64,000 bases of DNA from Balamuthia mandrillaris (taxonomy: Eukaryota > Discosea > Longamoebia > Balamuthiidae). Positions 13,265 through 63,343 of this stretch are shown piece after piece. Numbering within the stretch: position 1 is the stretch's first letter; each line of letters opens with the position of its first letter. A program made the translations under genes and the position numbers. The notes under the pieces were generated by a model, which searched no databases, was not told where the DNA came from, and saw only the letters and a list, made by a program, of their open reading frames with translations. The stretch spans positions 24,279 through 88,278 of the forward strand of contig JAVKOQ010000216.1 of the NCBI GenBank assembly GCA_031835245.1. The letters run 5' to 3'.

Positions 13265-13862
13265 TTGTTCAAAAAAAAATTGATTGTAAAACCGATGGAG
13301 ACGGCTGCTCGGTCATGGCGCAAATCAAACGACGAAGAGGAGGAGGAGGAGGAGGAAAACAGTACAGAGGGTGAAGAGGAAGAGGAAGAGGACGAGGAAG
13401 GGAATGCCAACCAAGAGCCAACCTTCTCGCTGCCCACATTTTATCAACCTCTCTCGACGGCTTCCATGTACGCCCCGCCGCCCCTGCAAGCGCCCTACGA
13501 GAGCTTTGGTTTCGTGGAAGTTGGTGAGAGCCCTCTCAAAGATGGGGTTTACCATCTGAAACGTAGCGCCAGCACCGGTACGTTTTTGTTTTAAAGATCT
13601 CTTCTGCTGAGTGTTCTTCTCTTGTGTGTGTGTGTTTGATTTATTTATTTTTTAAAAAATAAACAAAGTGGACCTGAGCGCCGAAGGTATTCTCAACCAA
13701 CAACGCAACATGGAGCAACGTTTGGAGGAGCTCTGCACCGAATTGGCTCGGCTGAAGGAGCGTGTGGCGCTGTTGGAATTGCAAGAGGACCACCGCTGGC
13801 CGGTCAGGTATTCATTTTCTCCGTGTGGCCGTTCTGTCCTTTTGTTCTTGCTCTCTGTGTCA

Positions 13863-13893
<31 letters not shown>

Positions 13894-15644
13894 TCTCTCT
13901 CTCTCACTCTCTCTCTTTCTCTCTCTAATTCGCAGCTTCTCTTTTCCCTCTTCTCTGCTTCTCGTTCCCTCGTTCTCTTCTTTCTCGTTCATGCTCCTCT
14001 GCTTGCTCCGTGCTTCTCTTTTCCTATCTCTTCGTTCTCTCCGTTCTCTTCTCCGCTCGCTTCTTTGCTTTCTCAACTCATGTAAACAAAATGATCAGGT
14101 ATTCCAAACGCTTAGCGATGATTGCTAACGTGACTTTAGGAAGCTATCTCTTTTGGACACGATTCGTCAACTTTTTCAAGCAACGTCGCTCTTATATCCT
14201 TCAACTGCTTTCTGGAGCTGTGCGCCTCAATATCAACAGTTATTTACCGTTCTCATCATCATCACCATCATCCTCCGCTTCCTCTTCCTCCTCTTCTTCT
14301 GCTGCTTCTCTTCTATCTTCCAGAAAGAAACACAAGCGACCTCTTTTCGGTCGCAATCGACTGATCCACCTCCTTCTTCCTCTTATCTTTTCGTCCTCCT
14401 CCTCTTCACTTGCTCCCAACAAAAATGCTGAAAGCGAAAGAACGAGAGCAAAGAACATTTTTAACGCTCTTTTGGGACAAGCAGCTTTGTTCGCTCTCAA
14501 AGGTAGTTGGGCGTACTTCTTTGGAGCGTATCTTCTCACAAGACATACCATGTGGAAACGTTACATGGGTCTCTTGATGACCACACTTTGTTCGTTGTGG
14601 CTGCAATACCTCTATTTAAAGAGCCACTTTCTTGCTTCTTCCTCCACTTCTGCGTCTTCTCTTCCAACTTCGCTTCTCGCTCCTTCTTCTGCAACAACAC
14701 TTTCTTCATCTTCGTTGCCCTCTGCTTTCATACCCTCGCCTGATTCTTCGTTTGCTCCTTCTGTTTCTTCTTCTCCATCTTCTATTCCTTCTTCTCCTTC
14801 TGCTTTAATTCCCCCATCCTCATCTTCTCCTTCACTCTTATCACCAGAAACTTATTTGTGGGGTTCAACTTCTTCTTCAGTTTTCTTCAACCAGAAGAAG
14901 AAGTTTCAGCTTTGGGTGTTATCGTTGGCTGTATTATTAGCCAACTTGCTTTTCTTTTCCATGTCGTTGAAGCATCTCCTTGACGGCCCAAGAGGACTCA
15001 CTTCGAGCCACGATCCATTCTACTCGTCCAAGAAAGTTCCCACTTTGTTTGGTCTTCTTCGTCGAAGTCGTCAACAGCAACCCACTCCGTCTTCTAGTGC
15101 TTCGACGGCAACTCCTCCAATCGCTTCTGCTCCGCTTTCCTCTTCTATGGCCCCACTTTCACCTCTTCCTTCCTCATCCTCTCCTTCGTTGTCTGCTCGT
15201 CACCATCACCATCATAGACGCGCTAGAACCATTGGAAGCTCTTTCGTCTTTCCTCCTCCTTCCTCTCCTTCTCCTCTATCTATTGATAACAATACTCAAA
15301 GGTTCGGTAGTGCCATGCAAAGACCTCCTCTTCATCCTTTGTCCTTGGATACATCTTCAACCGCTCCAGCTTCTGCACCCCCTTCCTCTCATCTTACTCA
15401 TTCTCATTCTGCTCCGCAATTGTTTCACTACCCCTATTCTTCCTCTTCGCTTCCCTCTTCCAACACTTTGCTCTTTTCCTCCTCTTCTTCTACCTCCATT
15501 CGTCCCACAACTTATCTTCCTCCTCCTTCTCCTTCTTCCACTTCTTCGTCATCATCATCTTTTCTTTCTCCCTCCACCCATCGTTATTCCCGTTCTCACT
15601 CACAACAACACAAAGATAAAGACACGGAAGAAGAAGAACAATAA
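13265..15644 (+). CDS. Ser-rich multi-pass membrane protein of unknown family
   Basis: Three exons (13265-13577, 13669-13807, 14099-15644) give 665 residues; an in-frame ATG at 13295 is an equally good start. In order: an acidic N-terminus; a short segment with SFGFVEVGESP; a coiled coil from exon 2 (about residues 105-145, heptads of Leu and Glu); then hydrophobic segments LIHLLLPLIF, NALLGQAALFALKGSWAYFF, MGLLMTTLCSLWLQYLYL and LWVLSLAVLLANLLFFSMSL separated by long Ser/Pro linkers; and a cytosolic-looking Ser/Pro tail of about 250 residues with a His run. The family was not recognised. A peroxin-like arrangement crossed my mind but no motif supports it. Confidence 0.7.
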
Positions 15645-15675
15645 CAACAAAAAACAAATACTTCGTTTTTTACCT

Positions 15676-16438
15676 TTACTTCTTCTTTGGAACAGAAAAG
15701 ATGCCAACAAAGAAAACTTCAGAGCCATCATCCAGGTGGGAAGTGTCCAAAAGGCCGTTCACCATCAGCTGGCCAACAGCACCTGCGAACTTACCCTCCC
15801 CGCCAACAATGTGGTAGGCCCCGTGAAGGCTTTTCAGAGTGCCGCCTCCGCCAGGCAGGTCCATCGACTTGGCGGGTTCATCTTTGGGACTCCTTTGTGG
15901 TTTTTTTGTGTTGCTTAGAAGCGAAAGAGAGAAGAGAACGACGAAAGAGAAAAGGGACACGGCGGGCTCGACCGTCAGTCGTTCTTGCTTACCTATAGTG
16001 CAACACATGCGCGCCGTGCTCGCCAAAGGTGATGTTGCCGACCTCCGTGAAAGCGTTGTTGGGGAGGTTGTAGACCAGGGCGTGGACTACCACGCCAGCG
16101 CCCTTGCCCTGCGGGTGGACCGCGAAGGCGATGTCGTCGGTGGAGGGGGAGACGGTGGTGGTGATGCTCTGGGAGGGGGCCTTGGCCTCGCAGATCAGGT
16201 TGGCGCCGGCCACGGAGGTGGCGTTGCACTTGGAGACGAAGCGGAGGGCGAAGCGGCCGATGAGGGTGTCGTCGTCGACCGGGTTGTGACTCACCAAAAG
16301 GTCAAAGTTGTTGCTGTTGTTGTCGGCGACGAGAGGAGAGGAGGAGGCCAAAGCAAGAGGCGAGAGCGCAGCGCAAAGCAGCAGCGCCGAGATGAGGAAG
16401 ACAACGAGCGAGAGGGAAGAAGAAGAAGAAGAAGCCAT
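15676..16438 (-). CDS. Small secreted protein, possibly dirigent/allene-oxide-cyclase-like barrel
   Basis: Two exons (15993-16438 and 15676-15892) give 220 residues. A clear signal peptide is present: Ser-rich start, hydrophobic LVVFLISALLLCAAL, small residues before the cut. The mature part alternates hydrophobic beta-like strands: GRFALRFVSKC, GVVVHALVYN, NITFGEHGAHVLHY, then GGTLKSLHGAYHIVGG, GKFAGAVGQLMVNG, EVFFVGIFSVP. The late G-xx-GKFAGAxG pattern recalls the dirigent/allene oxide cyclase fold, but the resemblance is weak and no catalytic role is claimed. It ends in three Lys. Confidence 0.7.
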
Positions 16439-16679
16439 GCCTGTTGTTTGCAACGCGCAGGAGTTTTGGAAGGAAGAAATGAAAGAAGATAAGAAAATGC
16501 TACGAAGCGCACTATAACGAAAACTATCGATAATTGGTTACTTTAGTTGAAAAGTAACGCTAAAATTCAAATTTTTCCTGGAAATTTTTAAGATCGAATT
16601 AATGTCGACTCTCATTTTTGATTTTTGATTGGTCAGATTTTTTCAGTGATGATTTTCGGACAAATTTCCATACTCTTCC

Positions 16680-16691
16680 ATGACGACGTGA
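16680..16691 (+). promoter_or_regulatory. Candidate motif ATGACGACGTGA, copy 3
   Basis: Identical to copy 2, 85-96 nt upstream of the start codon of the ligase-PARP gene. Confidence 0.35.
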
Positions 16692-16775
16692 CAAATATGC
16701 ATGCATTTATTTTTGGAACGAAAATCTCTTCAAGCAAAAAGCGTTACAAGAGGAAGGAAGACAAGAGCCCACAAA

Positions 16776-19528
16776 ATGTCGTCCTTCTCGCCAGAGTTCG
16801 TTGCATGGCCTTCCATAGGTGCCTTGAACACCGTCATACGCGCTCGTGCCAAAGCGTCCTCATCTTCCTCTGAGTCTTCCAGCGGTCGCCCTCGTGAAGA
16901 GGACGAGGAAGACTGGGCCTCCGCTTGGCAAAGCCGCCTCACCGGAGCGAGCTTCAACTATCGCGCCAAGATTAAACTTCATGGAAGCAATGCCGCTGTT
17001 ACTCTGTTTTCCGGCGGCTTTCGTGTGCAGAGTCGAAACAGGTTCTTGCTTCTTGTTCTTGTGCTTCTCCTTGTTGTTGTTCTTGTTGTTCTTGTTGTTC
17101 TTCTTGTTCTTCTTCTTCTTCTTCTTATGATTATTTTTTTGTTTTACGTATACAAAAGATTTATCGACGACGAGAACAAAGGCATGAGCGGGTGGGTCAA
17201 AAGACATGCCGACTACTGGAGCGGTCAGTGGGACCGAATGCGAAGCTCCCTGTTGCATTGCTCGGATAGGACCTTTTCGGAGGCCGCTTGTTGCACCGTA
17301 TTTGGAGAGTGGTGTGGCCCTGGAGTTCAAAAAGGGGTTAGTTTTGCGTCTTTTTGTTTTTGTTTTTGTGTCTTCTTTTTCTTTTTCTTTTTCTTTTTCT
17401 TTTCTTTTCTTTTCTTTTCTTTTCTTTTCTTTCATTTATTTCTTTTGTTGTTGCTGAACAACAACCAACAACAGAGTGTTGTGGCAGTGGAACAAATCCC
17501 TGAGCACATTTTCGCTGTGTTTGCCATTCTCGTTGGGGATGTCCTCCTCGTCGAGCCTCAACAAATCTCCACCCTTCTGTCTTCCTCTTCTTCCTCTTCT
17601 TCTACCCCTTCCTATCCTCCCAATCTTCACGTCCTTCCTTGGCTTTCCTATGATCCCCTCCTTCTCTCCTTTTCTTCTTCTTCCTCTTCCTCTGCTCCTT
17701 TTGCAGAAGCTATAACGAGAATGAACTCTATAGTAGAGGCTATAGAAGAGGAGGATCCCTTTATATCTCAAGTCTTCAACATCAAAGGACCTGGAGAAGG
17801 CGCCGTGTGGTATCCATTGTTGGAGCAAGAGTGGTCATGGTACTGGCAAAACGCTTTGCCTCGTTCTCTCTTTGGAGCTCTTTCCTTCAAAACAAAAGGC
17901 ACCTTACATCAAATGACTAAATCTTCGTTGAAGAGACATCAAACAACAAAAGAAAGAAAGACAACATCACCAGTAAAATGGCAAACGGAACTCGTGAGCA
18001 ACGAAGAGGAGTTGGTGGAAATGTTTGTCACTTCTGCTCGTTTACTTCAAGCTTTCAACGAAGTCATTCAAGAAGAAAACGAAGAGCTCGATAACGAGGA
18101 AGTGAAACGGAGAATGACGGAATGGTTAGTGAAGGACATCAAGAAAGAGAGTGTGGCAGAAAGAGAGTTGGCTCGTTCAACACTGGGATGTTCCGTCGAC
18201 AATTGGACTAAAGTCTCATCCCTCATTCATCAGCGCGTTCAAAGTTGGTCTTCATCTTCCTCTTCTCAGCATCTGTTTCAGCAACAACAAAGAACGACGA
18301 GCAAAACAGAAGAGAAAATCAGAAGCAACGGAAACGGAGGCAACAAAAGTTTGTTTCGAGGGCTCTGTTTCTGTTTTTCGGATGCTGTTTCGTTTGGAGA
18401 CAAGTCTAAATGGACCAAACTCATCAAAGAGAACGGAGGAAACACGAGTTACTTTCTGTCATTCAAGAATTGTCAGTATCTCATAGCGACCGAAGAGGAA
18501 GTCAGGAACGTTATACATCCGCAAAAACAGGAAAGACAACAACATAAAAGAGGTAAAGTTTGGGATGCTCTCCAGTATCTTCAACAACAAAATGGAGAAG
18601 GTGGAAATCTTCGAGCTTCGTTGTCTTCCTCTGCTTCTTCATCATCCCAAAAATTCATGATAGTGGATACCAAGTTTGTGGAGAAGAGCGTGGAGAGTGG
18701 AAAGCTGGAAGAGTTTGAGCATGACTTGTTGCGACGGTTGAAAAAGGAGGAAGGAGACATCACTTCGCGAGAGATTGAGCAGGTTCGTTGCGTGCTCTGG
18801 CTTCTTTTTCTGCTTATTTGCTTACCCTTTGTTTGTGTTCTTTCTTTATCTCGTAACGCAAACACAGAAACTTAGTGACAGAGAAGCCATCAAAAGTTCG
18901 TTTTCCATTCTTCTTGTTCCTGTGCCTTTTTCTTTTCTTCGTTCTGCTCACAATGAACCACATGTAACACAACACAGATCTTCCGAAAGCGTTGGTTTGG
19001 TCTTATGGAAAGTCATCCGACGGACCAAAGTTTCCCGAGCACAACTATGAGGTTGTTAAAATGGACGTGCTTCAATGCATGGACTTTAAAGCCAACAATA
19101 ACAAGTTTTACGTGATGGAACTGCACGCTTCCAATGACTATAACATGTACTCTTCTAATGACGGAGACGAAGGGTATGACATCCATTCTTTAGTTTCATT
19201 ATTTTTCTTCTCCCTCCCTCTCTCTTTCTCTCTCTCTCTCTCTCTCGTTCTTCTCTAACCGAAACAAATACAGAACGTACTTTATGTATAGAATATTCAC
19301 TCATCACGGTCGAACGGACGAGCTTGAAACGAAAAAGAACTGTGCTCAACGGGAGTGTCGCTATTTGCGTACCCTGAACGAAGCTGAAGTCTTGTATGAC
19401 TTTGTGTTGGCCACCAAGCTTGCCAGTGATAAAGGATACAAGAAAGTGGACCTGGTTTCCGTTTCGCCGAATATAGTCTCTCCTAAGGTTTCGTTCGTTC
19501 TTCGTTGTCGTTTCTCAGTCTCTCTCTC

Positions 19529-19586
<58 letters not shown>

Positions 19587-21150
19587 TTCCGCCTATTACT
19601 TGCTTAACTGTAATATAACAAACGAACAAACAGCTACAAAAAGAAAAACTGCAAAAAGAAGAAGATGTCAACTCCTTCTCCTCTCAACAACGTCAACAAC
19701 AGCCAACAAGCACTCTTCCAAAACCCGTTCAACAACTGGTTCAACTGTTGTACAAAGAGGCTAGCGAGTCCGTAACGAGAACGGTCATCGCACGCATAAC
19801 AACTGACGGCATTGAAACGCCGCTTGGCATTTTATCTCTCACCCAGATACAACGAGGAGAGGATGTTCTTCTAGAATTATCGCATTTGGCGATGCAACCA
19901 GAGTCATCGGTATATACTTTATGTTTCTCTCTTTTGTTCATCCTATGTTTTAATGTTCTATGTTCAGGAGAGAGACGAACATGTGGAAAAGCTCTCACAA
20001 GAGTTTTATTCGATGATCCCCCATCGCTTGGGCACTAACAAGGCGGAGATACGAAGGGCGATTCTGTCCTCTCCCCAACTCATCGAGGAGAAGCAAAACT
20101 TGCTTCAGTTGATGCGAGATATTATTTCTGTACGTTTTTTTCTGCTTTTCCTTTTCTTTTTGCTGTTCCTATTCTTTTACTCTAACTTGTTTTTTTGGTT
20201 TAAAAGGTGAGCAATGCTCGCTCAAGGGCAAAGAACATGGCAGAGATAGACAAAATGTACAACGCACTCGAATGCGACATTCAGCCTCTCAAACAAGACT
20301 CACCTCAATATAGATCCATTTCGGAGCATTTCTTGAATAGACCTTCATCCCCTTCAACAACAGCAACAACACCACAACTTCGCATCGAAGGAATATATGC
20401 TCTCAAGCAACAAACAAGCGGTTCTTCTTCCACGTCATCTTTTCTTCGTTCGTCTGCTTCATCATCTTCCTCATTTGGTTCAAATCTGTTGTCCTCTTTT
20501 TGGGATGAAGGCGGAGAATCAGAGGATAGGGGACGACAAAGTGAGGAGCGGTTGTTGTTCCATGGTTCTCGACTAAGCAATTATGTTGGTTAGTTCCTCT
20601 CTTCCTTTAGTTTCATTTTGTTTGGTCTTTCTTCCCTAAATTGTTTTCTTTCGACACTCCAATAGGGCTTTTATCAAGAGGCATTCTTCTTCCCAAAGTC
20701 ATAGTCTCGCAGGGTATCACCTCCCGCACTGACTTTGGCTTTTTAGGCGCTGGCATCTACTTCTCCGACAACAGTTATGCCAGTCTCAAATACACCACTC
20801 CTCTCCCTCCTGCTACCTCTTCTTCCTCCACACAATTCAATCATAGCAACAAGAAGAACAGTTCGAATAAGCACAAGAACAAGAACAAGAACAACAACGT
20901 CAACAACAAAGAGAAGGAGGAAGGGTTGCGACTGATGCTGTTGGTGAACGTGAAGCTGGGCAGAATGAAGGACTTTGTGAAGATAACGCCTCACCTGGTG
21001 GAACCTCCTGCGGGCTACGATTCCTGTCATGGAGTGAAGCACGGCAGCGGCGATCCTCCCGTGGAGAGCGACTTTAAGGAGGACGAGTACGTCGTCTACG
21101 ACGCCGCTCGCCAAAAACTGGCCTATTTAGTTGCTTTCTCTTTGTTATAA
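16776..21150 (+). CDS. Rnl2-type RNA ligase-BRCT-WGR-PARP fusion protein
   Basis: Ten exons (16776-17041, 17159-17336, 17475-18782, 18868-18895, 18978-19173, 19274-19487, 19634-19909, 19968-20129, 20207-20588, 20666-21150) give 1,164 residues with phases matching at each junction. Domains: RNA ligase (about 1-330) with motif I KLHGSN (nucleophile Lys67), motif III-like VFGEWCGPGVQKG, motif IV-like GEGAVWYP (about 258) and motif V-like SFKTKG (about 286); BRCT (about 441-560, ending in FMIVDTKFVEKSVESGKLEE); WGR (about 595-725, with HGR for WGR); PARP regulatory helices (about 731-876, TPLGILSLTQIQRG); and PARP catalytic domain with His995 in LLFHGSR, Tyr1035 in GAGIYFSD and Glu1144 in DEYVVYD. 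The H-Y-E triad predicts poly- rather than mono-ADP-ribosylation. No zinc fingers are present, so break binding would rest on WGR, BRCT and the ligase. A nuclear repair role is inferred. An in-frame ATG at 16701 is an alternative start. Confidence 0.88.
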
Positions 21151-21257
21151 AACAACAAAAAATAAAATAAAAATAAAATAAAAGTTAAAGAATGCGAGGA
21201 ATGAAGAGTATGGAAAATATAACATTCCTTGAATTCTTAACACGGATTTCTGTTTCC

Positions 21258-21269
21258 ATGTCGTCACGA
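21258..21269 (-). promoter_or_regulatory. Candidate motif, inverted copy 4
   Basis: The reverse complement reads CGTGACGACATG, a close match to copies 1-3, about 20 nt before the F-box gene start at 21290. Confidence 0.3.
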
Positions 21270-21289
21270 ACAATTTGGACAACAAGAAG

Positions 21290-22497
21290 ATGAGAGCCGA
21301 ACTGCCTAACGAAACGCTGGAGCTGATCTTTAGCTTTTTGGTTTCCTCTTCGTCCTCCTCAACCGCCTCTTCTTCCTGTAGGGCCTTGTGTGCTGCAGAT
21401 CAGACTTGTCGCCAATGGCACCAGGTCTTATCCCACGGGAATTGCCTTGCTTGGCGGCTACTCTTCCAAACGTGCTCCCGTCTTTTGCATGACCCTCTTC
21501 GCTACTTTGTTATGAAACGTTCGTTCGTCTTTCTTATCGTATTTTATCGTCTTTCTTTTTTCTTTTTTTTTCTTTCTTTTCCTCTTTTTCTTTTTTTCTT
21601 TTTTTCTTTTTCTTCTTTTTTTTTTCATTTTCTTTTTTTTCATTTTTTCTTTTTCTTCTTTTTTTTCTTTTTCTTTTTTTTTCTTTTTTCTCTTTTTGTT
21701 TTCATTTCTTTTCTTTTTTTCTTTTTTCTTTTTTTCTTTTTTTCTTTTTTTCTTTTTTTCTTTTTTTTTGTTTTTTGTTTTTTTCTTTTTTCTTTTTTTC
21801 TTTTTTCTTTTCTTTTTTTTTCAATTTCTTTTTTTTCTTTTTTTCTTTTTTTCTTTTTCTCTTTTTTTTTCCATTTCTTTTCTTTGTATTTTATACTCTC
21901 CTATAAACAAATAGAACCAGCTGCACCACAGTTTGCGAAAGAGGACACAAGCGACAAGGAAAAGTGCGCCGCGCTGCTCTCGCTTCCCTACTTTCGAGCT
22001 CCCATTTGTCGCAGCAAAGCCGATGTGGAGGGACACAGGGAGACGGCTGCCTCTTCTCTCGTTCGCCTTTCCGGTGTTTATTCGGTGGACAGAGTTTCTT
22101 CTGGAAAACGCTTACAGGTTTGCTTCTTATCCTTGTTCTTGTTCTTCTTTGTGCTTGTGCTTGTTCTTCTTGTTCTTGTTCTTCTTGTTCTTCTTCTCCG
22201 GCTGTTTCTTCTTCTCCTTCTTTTTGTTATTGTTCTTCATCTTCTTCTTCTTCTTCTTAGGTTGTTGCTGTTTCTTTTCCTTTCTCATCATTTACAAAAG
22301 GGCGTGTGGATACGTTTGGAAGAGGATGGCTATAACGTTTGTCGCAGCTATCGCCCAGTGGCTGAAGAGTTTGGCTTTGTGGACAAACGGGTGGTAGTGC
22401 GTTGTAGTGTAGGTTGGCCCTCTCGTCACGTTCAGTCTCTCAGCTGCCTCCACGCCCAAGATATACATTCCATTGAACTTGCCGAGGTATTCTTTCT

Positions 22498-22540
<43 letters not shown>

Positions 22541-23782
22541 GTATCTCGTCTCTTCTCACTCTATTTCTACTCTTGTGTGATAAAAAGGGAGAGACGAGCT
22601 ATGATGAAGTTCCCAACAGACTTCCTCCTCCTGCACTTGTTCAACGAGCCTCTGACCTCCTTTTGCTTAACCAACAATGGGTAACATTCTTGTTCTTCTT
22701 CTTCTTCTCTTTCTTCTTCCATTCTTTGTGCTCATTATACAACAATGTGCACATTAAGGTTCGATTAGTGGGAATTATCACATCGGTACAAGTTGACCCT
22801 CAAAACGCTCACTTTGCTGAAGCTGAGATAGCTTTGCGTAATCCTTTTAGCAACATGGACGAAGCACTTGATAGCGAGGAAGTTATCATTACGATTCCTT
22901 GCACATCTCGTTCTGCGTTGCTGGGGTTATTCGGCAAAAGGGTGGAGGTTGTCGGCGTCTTAGCATCATCTAAACCCAAAGCCCCCAAACATACTAAACG
23001 TGAGGAAGGAGGTCTTTATCTTTCCGACAGTCAGATTTATACCTGGGGCAAAGATGAAGAATATCCGTGTACGTATTCTCGCCTTCTTCGTGTCAGCTCG
23101 TTCTTCTTGTACTTCTTCTTGCTTCTTTTTCACCTAGGTAATATTTTTGTTTTTGCTTCCTTGTTTGATAAGTGGTGGAAAAGTACTATTTCAACATCTG
23201 CTTCAACGTCAAAGAAAATGGAGGAGGCTGGTCTTTGCGATGCCATGGTGACCAGTATCACGACTACAAACTGGAGCCTGTAGTATCTCGTATTGATGTC
23301 TTTGCTTCCTCCGACCTTTCGAAGCCGTTGGCTGTCCTTAAAGCCTCTTCTTGGTCTGCTTCTTATGTACGTCGTTCTCTCTCCTCGCTCTCGCTCTCGC
23401 TCCCTCTCTCTCACCCTTTTGTTGTACAACACAGAAAAACAAAAAACTTAAGAAAAAGTCAAACGCTGATCATCAGAACGACACTGAGTTGACTTTACGG
23501 CTTCACTTTAGAAAGGACCTCTACAGTGATCCTCCGCAGGACTTTGGCATCACAGCATCCAACAACAGCAACAACAACTTGAGAGAGTTGACGCTTCATC
23601 CTTTATCCCCTGAACAACCCTCCTACATTGAATTCCAATCCCACTTTCGCGTTCCCGTGAAGCGCTCTCCTTGGAAGGACGCAGAGCAAGTGACCGGAAC
23701 AGCAAAAGAAGGGCCACCAAGAAAAACAGCACCTCCTGTCCGTAAGCCACAAAAACACAGCAAGAAAGAAACCTCCTCCTAA
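21290..23782 (+). CDS. F-box protein with unknown C-terminal region
   Basis: Seven exons (21290-21518, 21915-22117, 22301-22486, 22588-22680, 22759-23068, 23173-23366, 23435-23782) give 520 residues. An upstream ATG at 21258 is out of frame and stops at once. The first 55 residues are an F-box: ELPNETLELIFSFL, then DQTCRQWHQVL and LAWRLLF, so it should bind Skp1 in an SCF ubiquitin ligase. The middle, VRLVGIITSVQVDP to GKRVEVVGVLAS, has alternating hydrophobic strands that could be an OB-like barrel; this is a guess. The C-terminus is Lys/Pro-rich. The substrate is unknown. Intron 1 is an extreme T-rich tract. Confidence 0.8.
21548..21890. repeat. (CTTTTT)-rich intronic tract
   Basis: About 340 bp that is almost wholly T with spaced C, in intron 1 of the F-box gene. 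It is open in a reading frame of Phe/Ser/Leu but is not coding. Confidence 0.9.
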
Positions 23783-49133: not shown

Positions 49134-49982
49134 TTACTCCTGTTGCAATCTTCTTCTCTCTTTTGCTCTTCTATTCCGAAACCAAACCTGCAGACGCTCC
49201 AGAGAGATTCCTGTTTGTCCCGCCAATCGTAGCTTGCACTGTCTGCTGGGCATGTGGTCGCTGGCGAAGGCCTGCTCCAAGATTGACAGCTGCTCAGGCT
49301 TCAGGTCGGATCGAGGTTTCCTAGGCAGTTTGGCGGCACCTTGCTCGTCAAACGAAAACCCCCCGATGTGAAAACGAAGTGGGGAAGGTGGGACCTTTCG
49401 TTGCTTTCGGTTGCTGATATGTTTTTGCCTCTCAGTTCTTGGTGTTGTGCCCACACGGAAGCTCCACCACCGAGACTGGTGATAGGCATCCTCTAACAGA
49501 ATGTTCGTATGGTGGTTCAATATATCCTCTGTTACTTCTCTTTGGGTGGTTGCTTCCAGTCCTGGCTGTTCTTCAGATGCGTTGTGATTCTCGGGGAATG
49601 CAATGACGCATGTTTCATTTGTTCTGTTCGCGGAGCAGGTGTGGTTTTGTTCCTTGTTCCTTTGTTTACTGTTTGCTTCAACTTCATCATGCAGAGCGCC
49701 CAAAGAGTTTAACTGAGGAAGGTGAGAGTCGTGCTGAGCATTTTCCCCAAGATGGGACTCATTCGATATGTCCTGCGGCGGTCTGTAGGCACGTTCTGTT
49801 GAAGTCGGTGGAGGAAGGTGACGCAGTGACAAGAGGGAGAGTGTAAGTTCAGGTCCAGTTGCCACCAGGGGGCGCATGTTTGACCAGGGAAGAGAAATTG
49901 GTAACGATGATGGAGGTGAGATGTAAATATCCACTTCCAACAGTTTCACAGGGAGGGACATGTGTGCCGTTTTATCTTCCAT
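49134..49982 (-). CDS. Homeodomain protein
   Basis: Single exon, 282 residues. The homeodomain lies at the C-terminus (about 220-280): PRKPRSDLKPEQLSILEQAF for the arm and helix 1, LRLAGQTGISLERLQVW for helices 2 and 3, and WFRNRRAKERRR. The recognition helix has Val-Trp-Phe-x-Asn-x-Arg, with Arg where most have Gln50 neighbours, so DNA specificity needs testing. The N-terminal 200 residues are low in conserved features, with His, Asn and Thr clusters. It should act as a nuclear transcription factor. Three-residue-loop TALE insertions are absent. Confidence 0.9.
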   Translation of the reverse strand: MEDKTAHMSLPVKLLEVDIYISPPSSLPISLPWSNMRPLVATGPELTLSLLSLRHLPPPTSTERAYRPPQDISNESHLGENAQHDSHLPQLNSLGALHDEVEANSKQRNKEQNHTCSANRTNETCVIAFPENHNASEEQPGLEATTQREVTEDILNHHTNILLEDAYHQSRWWSFRVGTTPRTERQKHISNRKQRKVPPSPLRFHIGGFSFDEQGAAKLPRKPRSDLKPEQLSILEQAFASDHMPSRQCKLRLAGQTGISLERLQVWFRNRRAKERRRLQQE

Positions 49983-50233
49983 CTTCTTTCAACAAACAAA
50001 CCGTAGCAGCGAAGAAAGCATTTCTATATAAACGCTTCGACTCGCCGTCTCTCTTTGTCTGTCATCTTGCGTTACTCAGGGATATTCCGGATGACATACC
50101 CCCCCGGCCGAAAAAAAAAACTCCAAGACCTTCTCCATCACACTTGTGCTCTCCAAACTCAACCCTCACAAGGTTTTGAGACACAAACAGACACAGAGGT
50201 CACCAGATTTTAATGACGCACCAATGGCATTCT

Positions 50234-61254: not shown

Positions 61255-61456
61255 GGGAAAATTAAAAAAAAAAAGAAAAGCAAAAGGAGGAATAAAAAGA
61301 AAACAGAGGAAAAGGCAAACAACCATCAGCTTCTTGCTCCCGTCGTTGTCTCAAGCTGCTCACTGAGCAGGCAACCGACGATCCTCGGAGGACAGAGCGT
61401 GTAGCAGGGCAGTCATTATTGGCGGCGCAAGAAAGAGGTTTTAAAAGTAACAAAAA

Positions 61457-63343
61457 ATGGAAGCAGCGGCAGAGAAGAAAGAGGAAGGGGAGGAAAGCCA
61501 AGCCCTTCCCCCCCTTCTCCAACGCTTTGCGCACTCCACTGCCTGCGACCTCTCCAACAACAAGTTGAGCGCCTTGCCGAGGGAGTTTGGCCAGCTCACC
61601 TCGCTCACCCGCTGCAACCTCTCCGACAACAAGCTGAGGTCCTTGCCCAAGGAGTTTGGCCTGCTCACCGCTCTCACCTCCTGTGACCTTGACAAAAACA
61701 AGCTGACCACCTTGCCGAAGGAGCTTGCCCAGCTCCGCGCGCTTACCCACCTCGACTTCACCTACAACAAACTTTCCTGTTTGCCGAGGGAGTTTGGTGA
61801 GCTCACCGCTCTCACCTGCTGTGACCTCTCCTGCAACAGGCTGAGCTCCTTGCCGCAGGAGTTTGGCCAGCTCTCCGCTCTCACCTCCTGCAACCTCTCC
61901 CACAACCAGCTGAGCTCCTTGCCAAGGGAATTTGGCCTGCTCTCCACTCTCACTAAGTGCTATCTCCAAGCCAACCAGCTGAGCTCCTTGCCGAGGGAGT
62001 TTGGCCAGCTCTCCGCTCTCACCTGCTGCAGTCTCTCCTGCAACTATCTGAGCTCCTTGCCGAGGGAGGTTGGCCAGCTCTCCTCTCTCACCCGCTGCGA
62101 CCTGTCCTTCAACAAGCTTACGTCCTTGCCGAGGGAGCTTGGCCTGCTCACCTCTCTCACCTCCTGCTACCTTCACCACAACCAGCTGAGCTGCTTGCCG
62201 AGGGAGTTTGGCCAGCTCACTGCTCTCACTCGCTGCAACCTCTCCAAAAACCAGCTGAGCGCCATGCTGAGAGAGTTTGGTCAACTCACTGCTCTCACTG
62301 AGTGCGACCTCTCCCACAACAAGCTTTCATCCTTGCCCTCCGAGTTTGGCCAGCTCACCGCTCTCACTCGATACAAGCTCTCCGACAACAAGCTGAGCTG
62401 CTTGCCCAAGGAGTTTGGCCTGCTCACCGCTCTCACCCACTGCGACCTCTCCTACAACCTACTGACCGCCTTGCCGAGGGAGTTTGGCCTGCTCACCGCT
62501 CTCACTAGCTGTGACCTCTCCTGGAATAAGCTGAGGTGCTTGCCGAGGGAGTTTGGCCAGCTCACCGCTCTCACCTCCTGCTACCTTCACCACAACCAGC
62601 TGAGCTGCTTGCCGAGGGAGTTTGGCCAGCTCTCCACCCTCAACTATTGCAGGTTGAGTGGCAACCCCTTGGCAGCACTGCCTTGTTCCATGGTTTGGCT
62701 TCTTCCCTCCTTGAAAACGTTCTTCCTTCAACCCTTTCAACGGCAAGAAGCACTTCTCCAACAAACAGAAGAACGTGAAAAGGAAGAGCAAGAGGAGGAG
62801 AAGGAGAAGGGAAAAAAGGAAAGAGAGAAACCCAAGCAAGCACCAGCCACAAGGAACAAGCAGACAGCTGTGAAAAGCTTGTGGCACTTGAGCGGAGAGG
62901 CGGTGCTGAGGAACCAGCTTTTGCCACCTGGCTTGTTGACCGCTGTTCGAGACCCGCCGCCCTTCTCTTGGCTTTCTTCTTCTCCTCTGAAGGTGGAGAG
63001 GACCACAAATCAGCAGCAGCAAGGAACCAAAGAAGAAAGGCAAGAAGGAGAAGAAGGGAGCGAGGAGGTGGGCAGAGGGGGGGTGCTGCCGGAAGAAGTG
63101 AAGGAGAGACTGCAAAGATTGCAGAGAAGATGTGATGTTTGTGCACAGTTGTTTTTGGAGGCAGAGGCAGAGGCAGAGAAGGAGGGAGAGGAAGCAGCAG
63201 GAGGAGAAGAAGAAGGGCAAGCAAGGGAAGTGGTGAGGAGGCATTGGGACGAGGAAAGCGGGGTGTGGTGGGAGTTGTTGTGTTGCAGCCAGAGCTGCTT
63301 CCACCGGCCCCTCCCTGCTGCACGTTCCCTTGCACCCAAGTAG
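61457..63343 (+). CDS. Leucine-rich repeat protein with C-terminal Cys/His module
   Basis: Single exon, 628 residues. After a Glu-rich leader come 16 full repeats of 23 residues (about 35-400) plus a partial one, of the form LxxLPREFGxLxALTxCxLSxN, a typical-class LRR with a Cys at nearly every repeat end, making a Cys ladder. The solenoid should bind a protein. The next 80 residues are Glu/Lys-rich. The end has VLPEEVKERLQRLQRRCDVC, then RHWDEESGVWWELLCCSQSC, where four Cys and a His could bind zinc. No signal peptide or membrane helix. Repeats are very similar at DNA level, so unequal crossover is likely. Intronless and GC-rich. Confidence 0.85.
   Translation: MEAAAEKKEEGEESQALPPLLQRFAHSTACDLSNNKLSALPREFGQLTSLTRCNLSDNKLRSLPKEFGLLTALTSCDLDKNKLTTLPKELAQLRALTHLDFTYNKLSCLPREFGELTALTCCDLSCNRLSSLPQEFGQLSALTSCNLSHNQLSSLPREFGLLSTLTKCYLQANQLSSLPREFGQLSALTCCSLSCNYLSSLPREVGQLSSLTRCDLSFNKLTSLPRELGLLTSLTSCYLHHNQLSCLPREFGQLTALTRCNLSKNQLSAMLREFGQLTALTECDLSHNKLSSLPSEFGQLTALTRYKLSDNKLSCLPKEFGLLTALTHCDLSYNLLTALPREFGLLTALTSCDLSWNKLRCLPREFGQLTALTSCYLHHNQLSCLPREFGQLSTLNYCRLSGNPLAALPCSMVWLLPSLKTFFLQPFQRQEALLQQTEEREKEEQEEEKEKGKKEREKPKQAPATRNKQTAVKSLWHLSGEAVLRNQLLPPGLLTAVRDPPPFSWLSSSPLKVERTTNQQQQGTKEERQEGEEGSEEVGRGGVLPEEVKERLQRLQRRCDVCAQLFLEAEAEAEKEGEEAAGGEEEGQAREVVRRHWDEESGVWWELLCCSQSCFHRPLPAARSLAPK

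Follow-up and report, generated by a model that had tools for sequence, protein, structure and literature searches.

A 64,000-nt stretch of the Balamuthia mandrillaris genome (assembly GCA_031835245.1, contig JAVKOQ010000216.1, positions 24279-88278; hereafter the window, on contig C215) encodes a gene in which an RNA ligase is joined to a BRCT-WGR-PARP module. One glucokinase exon of the assembly agrees with this source: it is identical at 86 of 87 positions to PDB 6vzz (180 bits, versus 82 for the next match), which PMC8569187 gives as the B. mandrillaris structure. A single exon is a thin marker; SAHH matched closely but not exactly, and ribosomal L3 did not discriminate. The gene lies on the plus strand at window positions 16776-21150, as do all of its features given below. 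It has ten exons, all introns are of the GT-AG kind, and splicing produces a single frame of 1,164 aa with one terminal stop, which bears out the original prediction of one in-frame exon chain from the ligase to the PARP domain. Exon 1 (16776-17041; aa 1-89) contains the start codon, ligase motif I, and the stretch QSRNR with Arg87; exon 2 (17159-17336; aa 89-148) contains ligase motif III; and exon 3 (17475-18782; aa 149-584, 436 codons) carries the rest of the ligase (motifs IV and V and the C-terminal domain) together with the BRCT domain. The join between ligase and BRCT is independent of splicing because both are located within this uninterrupted exon. The join from BRCT to WGR depends on splicing via exon 4 (18868-18895), a micro-exon of 28 nt placed between the two domains. 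Exons 5 (18978-19173) and 6 (19274-19487) encode the WGR domain, and exons 7 (19634-19909) and 8 (19968-20129) encode a linker and the PARP regulatory helical domain (HD). The start of exon 9 (20207-20588) still belongs to the HD, up to 20245, and its end, from 20534, belongs to the PARP catalytic, ADP-ribosyltransferase (ART) domain, which is continued by exon 10 (20666-21150) to the stop codon at 21148-21150. An open frame from 16692 to 18875 would permit introns 1 and 2 to be read as coding; this was rejected on the basis of a second copy of the gene on contig C22, in which intron 1 has 172 nt, not a multiple of three, and intron 2 contains a stop. We are highly confident that the locus holds a single real gene with the predicted protein.

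The C22 copy was found in a search of the assembly (64.8 Mb, 775 contigs); it is diverged and its flanks are collinear. The C22 segment (L035) as a whole is collinear with window 13658-23239 (DNA about 88-94% identical), and contig pairs of this kind recur for several of the family matches in the genome, as if the assembly held two diverged haplotypes or homeologues. In the C22 copy the reading frame stays open across exons 1-8 and into exon 9, as far as the match of window position 20453, beyond which the contig reads N. Of the nine exons compared (exons 1-8, and exon 9 to 20453), exon 4 is 100% identical in C22 and the other eight are 95.1-98.3% identical, versus 80.0-94.7% in the eight introns, and all four gap runs in exons are multiples of three, versus six of 19 in introns. 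One C22 splice donor is GC rather than GT. Over 953 codons, dN/dS is 0.112 (NG86; 73.5 synonymous and 31.5 other changes), with 0.097 in the ligase core, 0.29 in the ligase C-terminal domain, 0.058 in BRCT, 0.064 in WGR, and 0.086 in the regulatory part. The ligase, BRCT, WGR, and regulatory parts are thus under purifying selection. An assembly chimera was rejected because the ligase-BRCT-WGR-HD join is present on two contigs (C215 and C22), with introns more diverged than exons; the join to the ART domain is not visible in C22.

The same comparison bears on whether the locus gives one product or two. If most messages ended past ligase and BRCT, and WGR-PARP had a separate start, no fused enzyme would act. 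The small size of exon 4 would suit such an arrangement, as would the fact that the frame of exon 3, with intron 3 kept, continues to a stop at 18875. However, exon 4 and its AG/GT sites are kept in C22, against a divergence of 10-17%, with gaps, in introns 3 and 4, and the exon 3-4-5 join (aa 562-598) has two synonymous and no other changes, albeit in a small sample. We consider two separate products very improbable.

The ligase half has a nucleotidyltransferase core with motif I (KLHGSN, 16974-16991), which includes the nucleotidyl Lys67, motif III (FGEWCG, 17301-17318) with Glu139, and, by alignment with T4 Rnl2, motif IV (GEGAVW, 17793-17810) with Glu256 and motif V (FKTKG, 17886-17900) with Lys287 and Lys289. 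It is followed by an Rnl2-type helical C-terminal domain (17991-18266, about aa 321-412), in which Arg337 and Asp369 align with R266 and D292 of T4 Rnl2. The motifs named in the original prediction (KLHGSN with K67, GEWCGPGVQKG, GEGAVWYP, and FKTKG) were all found in place. In Pfam scans, which here and below refer to the whole protein unless stated otherwise, RNA_ligase matched aa 65-194 (39.4 bits, cut-off 27), and PHROG 548 ("RNA ligase") spanned residues 54-402 of the 406-aa ligase part (E = 1.3e-29), so the profile search proposed as a check of this domain confirmed it. Thirteen residues that we take to be catalytic in T4 Rnl2 are K35, H37, T39, N40, R55, E99, D120, E204, K209, K225, K227, R266, and D292. 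Ten of these are identical in the fused ligase (K35, H37, N40, R55, E99, E204, K225, K227, R266, and D292) and T39 is replaced by Ser. Together with the Pfam and PHROG matches, this supports the predicted assignment to the Rnl2 type.

Relatives of the ligase were found at 46 viral loci, 38 of which match from query residue 64 or earlier to residue 343 or later, and at 15 cyanobacterial loci, all matching from residues 55-60 to 404-406. Among 50,697 phage records, 72 have a relative, which in 45 covers at least 80% of the query. In sequence searches, T4 Rnl2, which sits on a very long branch of the ligase tree, was harder to recover than these PHROG 548-type ligases of phages and cyanobacteria. 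A PDB profile search with a three-sequence ligase alignment was weak (Rnl2 at E 0.76, behind one unrelated chain), phmmer with only the ligase half as query matched no ligase, and Foldseek on a model of exon 3 returned no match at E <= 0.001 out of 52, with no RNA ligase among the best 50 of 52.

The fused ligase stands apart from the T4 Rnl2 family in being part of a 1,164-aa multidomain protein and in lacking the equivalents of D120 and K209. With Rnl5-type ligases (DraRnl and NgrRnl) it shares the class of 5'-phosphate/3'-OH RNA ligases and the nucleotidyltransferase motifs. Rnl5-type ligases have an N-terminal OB domain, as reported for NgrRnl in PMC9931718, whereas the fused ligase has no Pfam OB match and possesses the Rnl2-type C-terminal domain instead; an N-terminal OB domain is excluded because motif I is already at residue 67, which leaves no room. 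One of the cyanobacterial relatives (L094) has a mixed Rnl5/Rnl2 layout composed of an N-terminal tRNA_bind (OB) domain, the ligase, and an Rnl2-like C-terminal region, and the same layout was seen by eye in two others (L091 and L103).

Judging from its sequence, the ligase half is likely to be active. Alternatively, the domain might have been co-opted for end binding or self-adenylylation and have stopped sealing, which would be consistent with the long branch (1.97 changes per column) on which the fused-ligase pair sits in the tree, the low-complexity inserts within the domain, and the changes at D120 and K209. However, the other catalytic residues named above are kept (T39 as Ser), D120 and K209 are also changed in the other 13 non-T4 rows of the alignment, the aligned phage and cyanobacterial relatives among them, and the ligase core has the low dN/dS given above. 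Loss of sealing therefore has a slim chance.

Downstream of the ligase are the BRCT domain (18351-18713; aa 441-561, Pfam BRCT_2) and the WGR domain (18978-19487; about aa 596-730), which by eye has H-G-R in place of W-G-R. In a ligase-free BRCT-WGR-PARP paralogue on contigs C99 and C287 (modelled from C99), BRCT (43.3 bits), WGR (27.9 bits), PARP_reg, and PARP all score above the Pfam cut-offs. The profile search that was to check the BRCT, WGR, and PARP parts of the fused protein had a divided outcome: PARP_reg (76.0 bits, cut-off 26.8) and PARP (60.3 bits, cut-off 26.7) were above their cut-offs, and BRCT_2 and WGR were below. We call the BRCT domain on its Pfam E-value (7e-5), its place in the domain order, and a collinear alignment of 283 bits with the C99 paralogue that extends from BRCT through ART. 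A BRCT structure predicted from one sequence was unusable (pLDDT 40). WGR is absent from the Pfam matches at E <= 1, and its region alone scored 14.0 bits (cut-off 22); a PDB profile search with a three-sequence WGR alignment was weak and found no WGR protein. The domain is nevertheless secure because it is homologous to the WGR of the C99 paralogue (E = 4e-21), which is itself above the Pfam cut-off.

The remainder of the protein comprises the HD (19709-20245; aa 756-889, Pfam PARP_reg) and the catalytic domain (20534-21150; aa 986-1162), the latter defined by Pfam PARP and by alignment with PARP4. They match the C99 paralogue with E-values of 2e-32 (regulatory part) and 2e-30 (catalytic part). 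The predicted H-Y-E triad is present as H995 (20561-20563), Y1035 (20758-20760), and E1144 (21085-21087), and a low-complexity insert follows the block with the Tyr. In a comparison with solved structures, the PARP half was closest to PARP4 (8sx1; 127 bits, E = 8e-36), far ahead of the clade 1 proteins PARP1 (64 bits, E = 1e-16), PARP2 (55 bits), and PARP3 (52 bits), and 63 of 133 aligned catalytic positions are identical to PARP4. The places of PARP1 K903, L985/Y986, and M890 are taken by A1042, K1141/E1142, and F1029, and in PARP4 by T484, E544/D545, and N471; A1042, E1142, and F1029 depart from PARP1, as PARP4 does at these places. The acceptor-site residues that make PARP4 a mono-ADP-ribosyltransferase are named in PMC10711553, which also describes the BRCT-WGR-CAT order of the human protein. 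The fused protein and PARP4 thus have in common the BRCT-WGR-HD-ART order, the H-Y-E triad, and a mostly mono-ART-like acceptor site, and the structure-match scores place the fused protein closer to PARP4 than to PARP1-3, all of which is as expected of clade 5.

The two proteins also differ. Animal PARP4 has VIT, vWA, and a vault-binding C end, and the human protein has lost the W-G-R motif, whereas the fused protein keeps G-R, has an RNA ligase in front, and stops at aa 1164, right past the ART domain, with no Pfam match to VIT, vWA, or the vault-binding end. Since these are not present, we refer to it as PARP4-like rather than as a vault PARP. Clade 5 members without VIT and vWA are also reported from Dictyostelium in PMC2964712, and the major vault protein is encoded at three places in the B. 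mandrillaris genome. We consider it probable that the ART half would be active as a mono-ADP-ribosyltransferase; by analogy, poly(ADP-ribose) chains are unlikely.

On the structure-match scores, a PARP1-type origin of the PARP half was rejected, and the PARP1-style DNA-break sensor of the original prediction was not supported in that form. Membership of PARP1-3 is contradicted both by the closest relation and by the H-G-R in place of W-G-R. Even so, BRCT-WGR-PARP could dock on DNA breaks as PARP1 does and ADP-ribosylate there, with the ligase sealing nicks that have a ribonucleotide on the 3'-OH side. A nick-sealing RNA ligase of Deinococcus is reportedly tied to radiation survival, which would fit. 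So would the Gly-Arg kept in the WGR (by eye), which is lost in human PARP4 (Phe-Leu-Leu; PMC10711553), and a rotifer that upon irradiation over-expresses, among other genes, RNA ligases, PARPs, and vault protein (PMC10809525). Against this stand the PARP4-like catalytic half, the replacement of the W of W-G-R by H, and the absence of PARP1-type zinc fingers from the Pfam matches at E <= 1. On balance, action at DNA breaks in this manner is unlikely.

In a search of the genome with the fused protein, ligase parts were found beside BRCT-WGR-PARP parts only on C215 and C22. Within 9.5-9.9 kb around each of four other PARP loci (C99, C287, C164, and C510), there was no ligase match. Family searches gave at least 53 PARP places and at least 12 RNA_ligase places; the ligase search listed neither C215 nor C22. 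Stand-alone ligases are encoded on C2/C61 (C2 being 35% identical to the fused ligase) and C294 (33%), and these and the ligase-free BRCT-WGR-PARP protein are, as far as sequence similarity tells, evident source types for the fusion. Contig C95 (L015 and L021) has two adjoining ligase-like exon sets with motif I HGANFAF, by eye nearer to T4 Rnl2 than the fused ligase is. On contig C1, an RNA_ligase and a PARP place (758078-758845 and 771382-771576) are about 12.5 kb apart and probably belong to separate genes. Contig C33 (L043:3959-4131) carries a gene fragment of 174 columns that is 92% identical to window 16931-17104 (the last part of exon 1, motif I included, and the first part of intron 1), about 0.4 kb upstream of an open frame with an ADP-ribose-binding macro domain (Pfam Macro, 111 bits). 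A viral origin of the whole fusion was considered: when viral contigs were scanned with the PARP part, none of the 275 pattern matches was a relative, and the frames of the 31 ligase relatives extracted at viral and cyanobacterial loci are 326-501 codons long, too short for such a fusion. No PARP was seen by eye among open reading frames of at least 110 codons around three of the cyanobacterial relatives (L094, L103, and L105), and a Pfam scan of two ligase relatives (L094 and L045) gave no PARP or WGR match.

Among the open-licence PMC papers listed by our searches, we found no description of a ligase-PARP fusion, in line with the original remark that no described protein of this order was known. 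Clade 5 PARPs have expanded in Amoebozoa and gained extra domains, which include 14-3-3, actin, and ubiquitin-related domains (PMC4245714); the word "ligase" does not occur in the main text of that study. We therefore regard the fusion as two known families in a novel domain combination.

We lean towards a bifunctional nucleic-acid-end enzyme, composed of a complete, putatively ATP-dependent Rnl2-type ligase and a PARP4-type BRCT-WGR-HD-ART module, and think that RNA-end repair or processing tuned by mono-ADP-ribosylation suits it better than a PARP1-like role as a sensor of DNA breaks. PMC10711553 reports that the PARP4 BRCT binds vault RNA, with a preference for RNA over DNA, and PMC12212138 confirms this BRCT as a nucleic-acid binder. 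ADP-ribosylating and sealing breaks that contain ribonucleotides, as originally proposed, is possible, with RNA no less likely a target than DNA and with poly chains unlikely, because the PARP half is PARP4-like and PARP4 is a mono-ADP-ribosyltransferase that binds vault RNA. RNA ends are slightly better candidates for the main target than DNA ends, and the chances are about even that the ART domain regulates the ligase or its RNA end. By analogy with vault RNA on the PARP4 BRCT, the BRCT would bind RNA that is structured or broken, and it could bring structured or nicked nucleic acid, more likely RNA than DNA, to the ligase. The ligase would adenylylate Lys67, pass the AMP to the 5'-phosphate, and seal it onto the 3'-OH. 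The ART domain may add single ADP-riboses to the protein itself, which would turn off RNA binding or sealing or mark the site, and it possibly ADP-ribosylates the same terminal 5'-phosphate, guarding the end until it is sealed. The ligase and the ART domain could thus compete for the same 5'-phosphate, so ADP-ribosylation could protect, block, or prime the end.

Several points weigh against this interpretation. On the ligase side, D120 and K209 of T4 Rnl2 are changed to A165 and Y261. BRCT_2 reaches 23.5 bits, below its cut-off of 27.3, and the BRCT scores 18.1 bits against that of the C99 paralogue, which shuffled sequences also reach (maximum 21.2 in 200 shuffles). In the PARP half, the place of PARP4 K516 is taken by I1110 and that of PARP4 E544 by Lys (K1141), and C22 reads N over the catalytic ART domain, so dN/dS covers the ligase, BRCT, WGR, and regulatory parts. 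With no vault-binding end found by Pfam, the link to vaults is by kinship only. The preference for RNA is not firm because the PARP4 BRCT binds a DNA form of vault RNA comparably (PMC12212138), and activation triggered by breaks is doubtful because vault RNA does not stimulate PARP4 (PMC10711553).

A further alternative is NAD+-driven ligation primed by the PARP half. The ART domain would put ADP-ribose on a 5'-phosphate, and a ligase free of AMP would take the AMP from it and seal without ATP, leaving a ribose-5-phosphate. According to PMC9458441, T4 Rnl1 uses 5'-ADP-ribosylated RNA only without ATP, with the AMP staying on the ligase, and no cellular ligase for this substrate was known to the authors; the use of this substrate by T4 Rnl1 makes the idea testable here. 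In its favour, the fused protein is predicted to have both activities, but the route requires an ATP-free ligase, which is unlikely at cellular ATP levels, and it leaves an abasic site; PARP4 is not mentioned in PMC9458441. We regard this route as highly unlikely. If true, it would be a natural NAD+-primed nucleic-acid ligase, in which the ADP-ribosylated 5'-phosphate acts as a mimic of the adenylylated end and a ribose-5-phosphate is written at the repair site.

The fused gene could couple nucleic-acid-end repair to ADP-ribose signalling. It offers a concrete system for testing if RNA repair is under the control of ADP-ribosylation, for learning how the PARP4 module, still little understood, handles RNA, and for finding out if ADP-ribosylated ends can be ligation donors in cells, a question left open by the 2022 paper on RNA ADP-ribosylation (PMC9458441).

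The window contains other frames besides this gene. About 140 bp past the ligase-PARP stop, the next downstream frame starts with an F-box (21290-21514, plus strand; Pfam F-box-like, 30.4 bits). Further away are a homeodomain frame on the minus strand (49137-49988, 58 bits) and a leucine-rich-repeat frame of 630 codons (61451-63340; LRR_8, 138 bits).

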